Positions 3,345-53,978 of a DNA stretch of 64,000 nucleotides are shown in pieces. Under the pieces are notes generated by a model. The model had not been told where the DNA came from, made no database searches, and saw nothing but the letters and a program-made list of their open reading frames with translations. The first letter of the stretch is position 1. Every line of letters begins with the position of its first letter. The translations under genes and the position numbers were made by a program. Source of the DNA: an uncultured Bacteroidales bacterium. Lineage in GTDB: Bacteria > Bacteroidota > Bacteroidia > Bacteroidales > P3. The stretch is taken from NCBI GenBank assembly GCA_949291555.1, contig CASEWE010000005.1, positions 62,001-126,000 on the forward strand. The letters are read 5' to 3'.

Positions 3345-4323
3345 ACGTATCGTTTTCATGGGCACGCCCCAATTCGCTGCGGTTTGCCTGAAGACCCTGG
3401 TCGAAGCCGGCCTGGACATAGCCGCCGTGGTCACCATGCCCGACAAGCCCATCGGACGGGGGCGCAAGACCGGCTGCTCCGAAGTAAAGAAAACCGCGCT
3501 GGAATTAGGCCTTCCCCTCCTTCAGCCGGAAAAGCTGAAGAACCCGGATTTCATAGCGGAACTCCGGGCCTTGAATGCCGATCTGCAAATCGTGGTAGCA
3601 TTCCGCATGCTTCCCGTGCAAGTCTGGAGCATGCCCCGCTTGGGGACATTCAACCTGCATGCTTCCCTCTTGCCGGCTTACCGGGGGGCCGCGCCCATAC
3701 AGCGGGCCATCTGGAACGGGGAAAAGGAAAGCGGGGTAACCACCTTCCTCCTCGACAAAGACCTGGACACGGGAGCCATCCTCTACCAGGAAAAAGTCGC
3801 CATGGCCCCCAACGAGACAGCCGGTTCCCTCCATGACAAGCTCTTGGAAATCGGCGCTCCCTTGGTCGTAAAAACCGCACGGGCTCTTTTTGCCGGCTCT
3901 ATCCAGGCCCGTCCTCAGGAAGAGGCCGGAAAAGGCAGCTTCCCTGAAGCCCCGAAAATCCTCAAGGAAGATTGCTACTTGGATTTCAGCCAGCCGGCCG
4001 AAAAACTCCACCGCCAAGTCATGGCCCTCAGCCCGCATCCCGGCGCCATAGCCTTGCTCGTTCATACCCAAAAGAACGAATCGACCCCTGTGAAGATACT
4101 GGAGAGCGAGTTCCTGCAAGAAAATAAAAAAAGTTATGAACAAGGACGGATCGAATCCGATGGCAAGCATTTCCTGCACATTACCTGCGGGGATGGATGC
4201 TCCTTGGTGGTAAAAAAAATACAACTCCCTGGTAAAAAAGCACTTACAGTCAGCGAATTTCTAAGAGGTTTTAGATTAGACAGTTGCAACCATCAGATTT
4301 TCCAAAAGGTTATCAACCAATAA
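3337..4323 (+). CDS. fmt: Methionyl-tRNA formyltransferase
   Basis: Transfers formyl from 10-formyl-THF to Met-tRNA(fMet) for translation initiation. 328 residues, normal length. The N-terminal formyltransferase fold begins RIVFMGTPQFAAVCL. The signature HASLLPAYRGAAPI near residue 110 carries the catalytic His, the Asn lies just before it in FNLHAS, and the Asp is in LLDKDLDTGAIL. A C-terminal OB-like tRNA-binding domain follows. The start overlaps the end of ribH by 8 bases, so the two are probably translationally coupled. No def gene is adjacent. Confidence 0.96.
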   Translation: MPERIVFMGTPQFAAVCLKTLVEAGLDIAAVVTMPDKPIGRGRKTGCSEVKKTALELGLPLLQPEKLKNPDFIAELRALNADLQIVVAFRMLPVQVWSMPRLGTFNLHASLLPAYRGAAPIQRAIWNGEKESGVTTFLLDKDLDTGAILYQEKVAMAPNETAGSLHDKLLEIGAPLVVKTARALFAGSIQARPQEEAGKGSFPEAPKILKEDCYLDFSQPAEKLHRQVMALSPHPGAIALLVHTQKNESTPVKILESEFLQENKKSYEQGRIESDGKHFLHITCGDGCSLVVKKIQLPGKKALTVSEFLRGFRLDSCNHQIFQKVINQ

Positions 4324-51205: not shown

Positions 51206-51317
51206 CATGTTGCGCAGCGTAAAAAGGGAATTTTAACATCCTAAAGGACTGTACGTTGATTCAACCTCCCGATGCTGTCCGCATCTTATGGACGCAAACT
51301 CAAAAATCACTATAGCC

Positions 51318-52394
51318 ATGAAAAAAGTGCATATTTTCAATGCCGGCCCGTGCAAGTTGCCGCAGCCCGCGATTGAAGCCGGTATCGAAGCTTTGAAAGA
51401 CTTCAAGGGAACCGGGATGTCGGTTATCGAAATCTCCCACCGCACCAAGGAATGGGAATCGATCATGGACGAAACCGTAGCCTTGTGGAAAGAACTGTAC
51501 AACATTCCTGAAGGGTACCACGTCCTTTTCCTCGGCGGCGGTGCCAGCACCCAATTCTGCTATGTTCCTTTCAACCTTCTCAACAAGAAAGCCGCTTATC
51601 TGGATACAGGCGTCTGGGCCCACAAAGCCATGAAGGAAGCCAAGCTGTTCGGCGAAGTCGAAGTGGTTGCTTCTTCCGAAAGCACCACCTACAACCACAT
51701 TCCCAAAGGCTGGACCATCCCGACCGATGCCGACTACTTCCACATCACGACCAACAACACCATTTACGGTACCGAAATCAAGGAAGATATCGACAGCCCT
51801 GTTACCTTGGTGGCTGACATGTCGTCCGATTTCATGAGCCGTCCGGTCGATGTCAAGAAATACGGCCTGATTTACGGCGGCGCCCAGAAGAACGTAGGCC
51901 CTGCCGGTGTTACCGTTGTCATTGTGCGCGAAGACATCCTCGGCAAGGTCGACCGCACGCTGCCTACGATGATCGACTACCGCACGCACATCAAGGGCGG
52001 TTCCATGTTCAACACGCCTCCTGTGTTCCCCATCTTCATCATGCACGAGACCATGAAGTGGATCAAGGCTCAGGGCGGTCTGGAAGCCATCCAGAAGATG
52101 AACACCGAAAAGGCCAACCTGCTGTACAACGAAATCGACAGCAACCCGATGTTCAAGGGCACGGTCATCGACAAGGCCGACCGTTCCTTGATGAACGTCT
52201 GCTTCGTCATGGAAGACCAATACAAGGAAAAGGAAGCCGACTTCCTCGCTTTCTCCAAGGAATGCGGCATGGCCGGCCTGAAGGGGCACCGTTCGGTTGG
52301 CGGTTTCCGCGCTTCCATTTACAATGCTTGCACGATGGAAGATGTTCAGGCGTTGGTTTCCTGTATGCAGGAGTTTGCCAAGAAAAACGCTTAA
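51318..52394 (+). CDS. serC: Phosphoserine aminotransferase
   Basis: 358 residues from the ATG at 51318; the upstream ATG at 51288 adds ten unlikely residues. It converts 3-phosphohydroxypyruvate to phosphoserine with glutamate, using [16 protein letters not shown] opens the family, [14 protein letters not shown] binds phosphate, [18 protein letters not shown] holds the PLP Lys, and [16 protein letters not shown] the C-terminal site. It also serves vitamin B6 synthesis. It works with serA 385 bases downstream. Codon choice (many GTT, GCT, GGT) differs from neighbours, as expected for strong expression. Confidence 0.96.
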
Positions 52395-52396
52395 AA

Positions 52397-52510
52397 GTTG
52401 CCTAAAAGGGCGATTTCTTCGTTACGCTCGGCATCGAAAATCCTCACGTACTAAAGTACGCTCCGGTTTTCTCCGCCTCGCAAGCCTCGAAATCGCTCCT
52501 TTCATACAAC
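52397..52510. repeat. 114-bp imperfect palindrome (possible interspersed repeat)
   Basis: The left arm (52397-52451) and right arm (52456-52510) match as inverted repeats around a 4-base centre in GTACTAAAGTAC. Outer ends read GTTG and CAAC, and CGATTTC pairs with GAAATCG inside. It starts three bases after the serC stop. I recall similar CACGTACTAAAGTACGCT-centred units elsewhere in Bacteroidales, which would make it a REP/MITE-like element, but there is no second copy in this window. Confidence 0.75.
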
Positions 52511-52530
52511 TTTGAAACTTGGAACGAAAA

Positions 52531-52618
52531 GCGTGCCTTGCAGCTGCGCGTTCATAAAAAAGTTTTAAAAAGGGCATGCGGCTTGCATCTGCATGTTCAT
52601 GAAAAAGCGTTTTGAAAG
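52531..52618. repeat. Degenerate tandem pair of about 44 bp
   Basis: GCGTGCCTTGCAGCTGCGCG then TTCATAAAAAAGTTTTAA (52531-52570) is followed by GCATGCGGCTTGCATCTGCA then TGTTCATGAAAAAGCGTTTTGAA (52574-52616). The same order of elements is kept with many substitutions. Confidence 0.6.
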
Positions 52619-52630
52619 ATTGAATGAACG

Positions 52631-52657
52631 GGACCCTCAAGTGCAACTTGGGGGTTC
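52631..52657 (+). terminator. Terminator after serC
   Basis: ACCCTCAAGT pairs with ACTTGGGGGT around a three-base loop, followed by TCTGTTTAT. It lies 237 bases past the serC stop, beyond the repeats. Confidence 0.6.
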
Positions 52658-52778
52658 TGTTTATGGGCCAAAGGCGGAGGCAGCGCGCCCTGCCTTACAA
52701 TCGGTGCGGGATTCATCCATCATGGATTCGCCCAATAAAGGCCCGAACCAATAAAGATCAATTAAAATCCAAATAACC

Positions 52779-53699
52779 ATGAAAGTATTAGTTGCTACCG
52801 AAAAGCCTTTCGCCAAGGCTGCCGTTGACGGAATCCGTCAAATCGTGGAAGAAGCCGGCTTCGAACTGGCTTTGCTGGAAAAGTACACGGATGTGAACGA
52901 TTTGTACAAAGCCGTGGCCGATGCCGATGCCTTGATTGTCCGTTCGGACAAAGTGACCAAGGAAGTCATTGAACACGCCAAGAACCTGAAGATCGTGGTT
53001 CGCGCCGGCGCCGGTTACGACAACCTCGACCTGGCTGCTTGCACCGAACACAAGATCGTGGCCATGAACACCCCGGGACAGAACTCGAACGCTGTGGCCG
53101 AATTGGCTACCGGCTTGATGGTTTACATGTTCCGCAACCTGTTCAACCCCGGCACGGGCGCCGAACTGAAGGGCAAGAGCCTCGGTATCCACGCTTACGG
53201 CAATGTCGGCCGCAATGTGGCCCGCATCGCCAAGGGCATCGGCATGGACCTCTACGCTTACGATGCCTTCTGCCCGAAGGAAGTGATTGAAAAGGACGGT
53301 GTAAAGGCGGTTGATTCGGTGGAAGAGCTCTACAGCAAATGCCATATCGTTTCGCTGCACATCCCGGCCACCAAGGAAACGATCGATTCCATCAACTACG
53401 ATTTGTTGAACCGGATGCCCAAGAACGCTTTGCTGGTCAACACGGCCCGCAAGGAAGTGATCCACGAAGCCGACATGGTTCGTATCCTCAACGATCGTCC
53501 CGACTTCAAGTATGTTACCGACATCAAGCCGGGCAACCATGACGAGCTGGCTGAAAAGTTCCCGACCCGTTACTTCTCGACGCCTAAGAAGATGGGCGCC
53601 GAAACGGCCGAAGCCAATATCAACGCCGGCTTGGCTGCCGCCCACCAGATTGTGGACTTCATCAAGAACGGCGTCACCAAGTTCCAAGTGAACAAATAG
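52779..53699 (+). CDS. serA: D-3-phosphoglycerate dehydrogenase, short form
   Basis: 306 residues. It oxidises 3-phosphoglycerate with NAD+, the first step of serine synthesis. It is the short type, without the C-terminal ACT/regulatory domain of E. coli SerA (about 410). VVRAGAGYDNLD is the substrate loop, SLGIHAYGNVGRNVARIAKG the NAD-binding loop, and Arg, Glu and His of the site are partly visible in VVRAGAG and NTARKEVIHEADM. The catalytic His of the usual HxxxEx is not obvious to me by eye. It follows serC with repeats between and has its own terminator. Confidence 0.92.
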   Translation: MKVLVATEKPFAKAAVDGIRQIVEEAGFELALLEKYTDVNDLYKAVADADALIVRSDKVTKEVIEHAKNLKIVVRAGAGYDNLDLAACTEHKIVAMNTPGQNSNAVAELATGLMVYMFRNLFNPGTGAELKGKSLGIHAYGNVGRNVARIAKGIGMDLYAYDAFCPKEVIEKDGVKAVDSVEELYSKCHIVSLHIPATKETIDSINYDLLNRMPKNALLVNTARKEVIHEADMVRILNDRPDFKYVTDIKPGNHDELAEKFPTRYFSTPKKMGAETAEANINAGLAAAHQIVDFIKNGVTKFQVNK

Positions 53700-53741
53700 G
53701 AACCTGCCCATGCGCGCTTCGAAGCGCGCATGAAGAACGGG

Positions 53742-53775
53742 AAAGGGCGGTCCGGAATCCGGACCGCCCTTTTCC
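53742..53775 (+). terminator. Intrinsic terminator of serA
   Basis: AAAGGGCGGTCCGGA and TCCGGACCGCCCTTT form a long perfect stem followed by TCCGTTTA. A small palindrome (TGCGCGCTTCGAAGCGCGCA) precedes it. The rest of 53776-53978 has no gene I support. Confidence 0.85.
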
Positions 53776-53978
53776 GTTTATCCCGAAAGGAGGGCGCCGG
53801 AACGAGCCCGGTCGCTTCCTCAAGGATTTTCCCCGCTTCATCCAACAGCGGGAACATCCAATAGATAAAAGCAGCATGCCCAATGCCGAAAGCCTTCAGC
53901 ATCGCGCATCGCCGGCTTCCGAAGCCAGCCGCCTCCCGTTTTCCCGGACCGCACCCTGCCTTCGCGAGAAAACGCATT

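Follow-up and report, generated by a model that had tools for sequence, protein, structure and literature searches.

Results

A long hairpin stands between serC and its terminator

The window, a stretch of 64,000 nucleotides of a Bacteroidales contig, carries at 51288..52394 (+ strand, from the ORF list) a gene that we take to be serC, encoding phosphoserine aminotransferase, a name owed to the first-pass annotation. Its stop codon, TAA, occupies 52392-52394, and the palindrome placed directly after it by the first-pass annotation is present as an inverted repeat at 52397-52510, with arms starting 1-3 bases past the stop codon. Downstream lies a serA-like dehydrogenase gene (52779..53699, + strand, from the ORF list). 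Directly 3' of that gene, a near-perfect 21-bp inverted repeat (53736-53778; 95% complementary, with a 1-nt gap) is likely its terminator.

RNA folding of positions 52395-52515 gives one hairpin whichever strand is read, at -39.0 kcal/mol (z -4.75) on the + strand and -54.4 kcal/mol (z -7.09) on the - strand, and none of 200 dinucleotide shuffles matches the fold of either strand. The better-folding - strand, to which we assign the element, is termed the GA strand; the CU strand is the sense strand of serC. The arms do measure 55 bp, as had been claimed, although they do not form 55 pairs: pairing is imperfect, with internal loops, and 39 pairs are counted from the predicted structure of the + strand. 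Because the arms are interrupted, a repeat search with an 18-bp minimum missed the element. At its centre lies the conserved tip TCACGTAC-TAAA-GTACGCTC (52444..52463, + strand), with the loop GTAC-TAAA-GTAC and a tip centre 59 bp downstream of the serC stop codon. Two boxes, defined by our alignment A1 and by the model alignment, flank the tip on the CU strand, namely CTTCGTTACG on the left (52417..52426; the AACG box of the GA strand) and GCCTCG on the right (52484..52489; the CGAGGC box of the GA strand). Covariance model R1 recognises 52408-52499 on the - strand at 73.5 bits, the element itself being among the 56 model sequences, and Rfam gave no convincing match for it.

Further down, at 52624..52664 (+ strand), stands a separate terminator-like hairpin of 19 pairs, kept 3' of serC in relatives whether or not they carry the element; a simple T-run terminator scan did not flag it. 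The element therefore sits between stop codon and terminator, and the earlier view that it is larger than a terminator and distinct from the real one holds, as does the reality of the downstream hairpin. Two orphan right-box-like pieces at 52534 and 52579 (52534..52592, + strand; weak matches with up to 3 mismatches) are read, with the help of an alignment with the intergenic regions of genomes G011 and G009, as putative remnants of older elements in the same orientation.

Copies are dispersed through the genus

A BLAST search of the serC element against its own genome returned one full copy and short core matches, the core being common to hairpins with differing stems. The tip pattern GAGCGTACNNNNGTACGTGA is present in 11 of the 13 genomes of the genus, at 63 (G001), 56 (G011), 49 (G002), 26, 23, 22, 15, 11, 8, 3 (own genome), 1, 0 and 0 copies, and the reversed pattern occurs in none of the 13. 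Model R1 finds 8 copies in the element's own genome and at least one match in 26 of 120 relatives, with a ceiling of about 35 on the matches counted in any one genome. Thus, the lone copy without counterparts in relatives, named by the first-pass annotation as the outcome contrary to its proposal, is not what is seen, and the genome-wide count that it proposed comes to eight. Some copies within the genus stand in tandem. The genomes are mostly draft assemblies, from which insertion sequences can be missing. Two records titled Ruminococcus flavefaciens isolate NALB_7813_18 (JAMPAI010000012.1, locus L079, 72080 bp; JAMPAI010000011.1, locus L099, 78261 bp) agree in length with contigs C3 and C2 of G010; the label is probably wrong, G010 being a Bacteroidales of the serC element's own genus.

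Stems vary freely while pairing is kept

The family consists of hairpins of ~110-120 bp in which the tip, TCACGTAC-NNNN-GTACGCTC, is conserved, two boxes are present, and the stems vary freely yet co-vary strongly. Alignment A1, built by sequence alone, holds 56 of 65 selected sequences from many taxa; its consensus comprises an outer stem, the boxes, an inner stem and a 6-pair tip stem. Tip and boxes were selected by pattern, so that their invariance in A1 is partly by construction, whereas stem covariation was not a selection criterion. Both-sided changes occur in 11 of the 18 consensus pairs, paired cells make up 89.9% of cells against 71.4% in shuffles, and the covariation score of 0.459 (0.129 in shuffles) was reached by none of 500 shuffles; slid versions score 0.03-0.15. 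Judged by this alignment, stem sequence is free and stem pairing is constrained. The conserved mismatches on the GA strand could form tandem G.A pairs.

Orthologous elements display the same behaviour. The tip is TTAC/GTAA in G007 and GTAC/GTAC in G010, a compensated change, the former being what we take to be the tip form of enterobacterial ERIC. Inner stems of orthologues are swapped wholesale with pairing kept: in L217 (G007) versus L231 (G010), and in L298 versus L229, the outer stem is the same and the inner stem wholly different yet paired, within flanks ~93-97% identical between the genomes. Such replacement suggests conversion between copies or very fast paired evolution. In the family at large, the outer ends are the variable part of the element and the core the conserved part.

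Elements begin at stop codons in a fixed orientation

Gene calls throughout were ORF rules and not the output of a gene finder. With codon-model calls, a gene 3' end lies within 80 bp on the CU-sense side in 63 of 89 elements of the genus and on the other side in 2, the 89 being 93 genus elements less 4 that fall inside a called ORF. Under a plain rule (an ORF of at least 120 aa whose stop codon is 40-79 bp away from the tip centre), a stop codon is found on the CU side at 53 of 76 distinct elements, versus 5 of 76 in the other orientation (p 3e-11). Most distances from stop to tip centre are 58-66 bp, equivalent to an element that begins at the stop codon; the background for such placement is 2-7% per 40-bp bin. 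In the element's own genome the rule is kept by 6 of 8 copies. At the loci read individually, serC and frr, the element lies between stop codon and terminator.

Across a multi-phylum sample, the CU side is occupied in 53 of 130 and the other in 8 of 130 of the matches listed (p 3e-9). Broken down among these listed matches, the CU-side counts are 15/18 for Alphaproteobacteria (GA side 4/18), 8/17 for Bacteroidota, 3/22 for Bacillota and Actinobacteriota, 3/14 for Enterobacterales and Aeromonas, 1/3 for Rickettsiales, 0/3 for Pseudomonas, 3/14 for other hosts and 20/39 where hosts were not named. Among alphaproteobacterial plasmid records, four are annotated, and a gene 3' end stands on the CU side in three of these but not in the fourth; a fifth record carried no annotation. 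In Bacteroidales and Alphaproteobacteria, then, the placement rule holds strongly; in the other groups it is weak or undecided. ERIC itself breaks it at four E. coli loci (five records): gene 3' ends lie on the GA side at yeiL, dxs and pgk, yeiL having in addition a convergent gene that ends on the CU side, and the rpiA copy adjoins a gene 5' end.

Empty and filled sites support insertion

The gene that we presume from its C-terminus to be frr has an element at its 3' end in 4 of 11 species (G010, G001, G011, G002) and an empty 3' end in 7 (G007, G003, G005, G004, G012, G009, G000); the sister genomes G010 (filled) and G007 (empty) are 95% identical at this locus. The G010 element differs in sequence from that of G001/G011, and the same stop codon was therefore probably used more than once. 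At the serC 3' end, G000 and G009 have the element, G011 and also G007/G010 carry in that position elements whose stems are different, and G003 and G012 have none; in G006 an element stands farther downstream in the other orientation. A gene ending ..GVILAFAANK* carries different elements in the sisters G001 and G011, with remnants behind them, and no element in G009 and G000. Presence/absence comparison supports insertion at eight further genes. These polymorphisms between sister species, together with the dispersed copies, bear out the proposal that the palindrome is MITE-like and copied elsewhere. Indeed, the element is short, non-coding, palindromic, dispersed and polymorphic for presence, the features by which MITEs are recognised.

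Downstream of 83 elements, orphan boxes stand 28 times in the same orientation and 5 times in the opposite one. The idea that only right arms persist there was discarded, 17 right and 11 left boxes making up those of the same orientation. At one gene (L233), the last codons and the stop codon are supplied by the outer stem of the element. With regard to the TA target duplication of ERIC, outer ends are often TA..TA and TGA stops occur in 24 of 115, and no target-site duplication is definable, the sole clean empty site (G007 frr) defining none.

Look-alikes in other phyla and the relation to ERIC

A tip-pattern scan of one genome per species matched at least 118 stretches, a number that alone is near chance (about 120 expected for 16 fixed bases, by our own arithmetic); the evidence lies in the arms. 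Among the matches listed, at least 20 base pairs form outside the tip in 109 of 128 testable cases versus 74 of 384 control placements, and both boxes are present in 66 of 128 versus 3 of 384. Hosts among these listed matches include Porphyromonas, other Bacteroidales, Bacillus and relatives, Listeria, Mesorhizobium, Agrobacterium, Asticcacaulis, Rickettsia, Scalindua and several Enterobacterales. Of fourteen matches on viral contigs, 8 form 20 or more pairs outside the tip and 1 has both boxes, which is not clearly above the control. Tandem arrays of 2-5 elements spaced ~122-127 bp apart occur at L090, L097, L100, L102 and L151, hosted by Coriobacteriales, Alteribacillus, Lysinibacillus, Rouxiella and Sporosarcina; the L097 array stands among tRNA genes. 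Rfam searches of eight other loci returned only tRNAs and a sub-threshold Wolbachia sRNA model in a Rickettsia locus. The latter, WsnRNA46 (Wolbachia sRNA 46), matches L093 of Rickettsia tamurae at 3865-3979 and 1077-1205, stretches that are possibly another palindromic repeat.

The tip pattern also retrieves copies in Klebsiella, Enterobacter and Citrobacter, which score 50-60 bits with R1, one Citrobacter copy of ERIC type (L141) being among the 56 model sequences; four E. coli loci outside the training set score 32-35 bits. Compared with 5426 E. coli genomes, the Enterobacter copy has matches in 5376, at a median of 12 places, which fits ERIC; by the ERIC primers, we take these matches to be ERIC. 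The serC element shares the central core and boxes of ERIC and departs from its overall consensus, which includes the outer arms. As no ERIC sequence is found outside tip and boxes, we call the element ERIC-like, not ERIC. What ties the element to ERIC is its tip, boxes and structure; the stem sequences have nothing in common.

No mobiliser among the families and loci searched

The genus was searched for two transposase families, Y1 and DDE_3. The Y1 (TnpA-REP) domain is found in none of the 13 genomes, including those with 49-63 tip copies, and a control search was positive in 5 of 14 named genomes; the matching TnpA-REP transposase that the first-pass annotation envisaged is thus missing from the genus. 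The IS630-type DDE domain (DDE_3) is likewise absent from 13 of 13, and an IS630-type mobiliser such as that of RUP was rejected on this ground. Absence from draft assemblies is weaker evidence for multi-copy insertion sequences than for single-copy RAYTs. Reverse transcriptase, present in 2 of 13 genomes (G010 and G012), was set aside as mobiliser, being absent from the three genomes with most copies. When 918 ORFs from 132 loci were clustered, the groups that emerged were housekeeping-like or spurious and included no recurrent linked mobiliser; nor did these 132 loci hold a linked transposase. Conserved terminal inverted repeats that match an autonomous transposon, as in MITEs, are not seen, the outer ends being the variable part.

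Discussion

On our best reading, the serC element is probably one copy of a small mobile hairpin, ERIC-like and non-autonomous, that either lands or persists in the interval from stop codon to terminator. Against this reading stand the lack of a definable target-site duplication and of a mobilising gene, the four E. coli ERIC loci that are off the rule, and the weak placement in Bacillota (3/22, among the matches listed). ERIC-like mobile hairpins are already known; what is new here is a Bacteroidales branch, free stems, and anchoring at stop codons in a fixed orientation. The open-licence literature yielded no paper linking ERIC to such hairpins in other phyla, and none reporting a stop-codon and orientation rule for them.

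The alternative that survives best, and that we nonetheless regard as unlikely, is a resident, functional 3'-UTR RNA element, in which selection at the mRNA level, for stability or for binding of a protein, would explain position, orientation and co-varying stems, mobility being rare and secondary. A strand fixed relative to the gene, a position upstream of the terminator, and orthologues that stay paired while their inner stems are replaced would all suit such a role. However, the distribution is patchy (26 of 120 relatives), sister species carry anywhere from 0 to 63 copies, conserved genes have empty sites, and the better-folding strand is the antisense one.

It is much less probable that the right arm was copied from the resident gene end by template switching, which would make the palindrome host sequence. 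Pairing does, in several copies, cross the stop codon into the last codons of the ORF, an observation for which the shuffled control was uninformative; yet at L233 the gene of species without the element ends in ..CFFWYKR* or ..CFFWYK*, the extra codons arrive with the element, and this case lends no support to arms copied from gene ends. We give very little credence to an ordinary serC terminator, for although the hairpin lies directly 3' of the stop codon, 52397-52510 is not a GC-rich stem followed by a T run, no T run standing behind it, and the separate 19-pair hairpin further on is kept in species without the element. Least credible of all is a REP element or BIME with a RAYT (TnpA-REP) transposase as its mobiliser, the type suggested by the first-pass annotation: REPs are 20-40 bp long, and despite the shared palindromic, mostly intergenic, dispersed and multi-copy character, we reject this reading for the genus, given a length of ~115 bp and, insofar as the assemblies are complete, 13 genomes that all lack a Y1_Tnp domain.

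Comparison with known families places the ERIC-like hairpin closest to ERIC (also IRU or RU-1), a 127-bp enterobacterial repeat (Hulton 1991; Sharples and Lloyd 1990; as cited in parts of PMC2229807). Both are long imperfect hairpins of similar size, dispersed and non-coding, with the same plan of tip and boxes, and differ in that their stems have no common sequence and in that the E. coli loci are off the rule that is strong here. Passages of PMC2759123 describe ERIC fused to a gene 3' end with removal of its stop codon, and both ERIC and the present element can thus extend a gene. According to parts of PMC2229807, the means by which ERIC-type repeats move is not established. RUP of Streptococcus pneumoniae, described in that source as an IS630-driven MITE, is similarly small, non-autonomous and palindromic, and differs in its mobiliser, the IS630-type domain occurring in 0 of 13 genomes of our genus. 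The Rickettsia palindromic elements (RPEs), palindromes of 105-146 bp noted in the same passages for in-frame insertion inside genes, are known here by description; hairpins with our element's tip do occur in Rickettsiales, although in-frame insertion is an RPE trait. Reviews treat ERIC, CIR, RPE and Correia as separate families, at least in the portions of PMC10969869, PMC2267715, PMC2759123, PMC2229807 and PMC5082802 concerned. In our alphaproteobacterial hairpins the tip is the same, and the placement rule is followed by 15 of 18 of the matches listed. In that host group, CIR, the Caulobacter and Brucella intergenic repeat, was reportedly described by Chen and Shapiro in 2003; that these hairpins are CIR is only a lead.

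How the ERIC-like hairpin reaches its sites can be framed in two ways. An enzyme supplied in trans may recognise the folded core of tip and boxes and put the element at the stop codon; alternatively, the elements that landed there in that orientation would be the survivors. The data so far fit targeted insertion and selection following less specific insertion alike. Once in place, the element would form the first structure of the 3' UTR and, by analogy with ERIC in Yersinia, for which parts of PMC2229807 state that orientation matters for mRNA decay, may alter decay of the message; a role in stabilising the message end is possible. Its outer stem can also supply a gene's last codons and stop codon, as seen at one gene.

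It is tempting to speculate, and we do so tentatively, that ERIC, its alphaproteobacterial and rickettsial look-alikes, and the serC element form one pan-bacterial class of mobile hairpin and not a decayed transposon. Structure-specific machinery would then read the folded core (a tip with tandem G.A mismatches on one strand, and two boxes), tolerate any stem, and install the hairpin at stop codons, in one orientation and repeatedly at the same genes.

As a constraint, placement at stop codons in one orientation is strong and testable; it suggests either that the mechanism is coupled to transcription or to the termination of translation, or that the element has a function at mRNA 3' ends. Should ERIC belong as one branch to a multi-phylum family, the place to seek its machinery would be genera such as this one, in which sister species carry between 0 and 63 tip copies.
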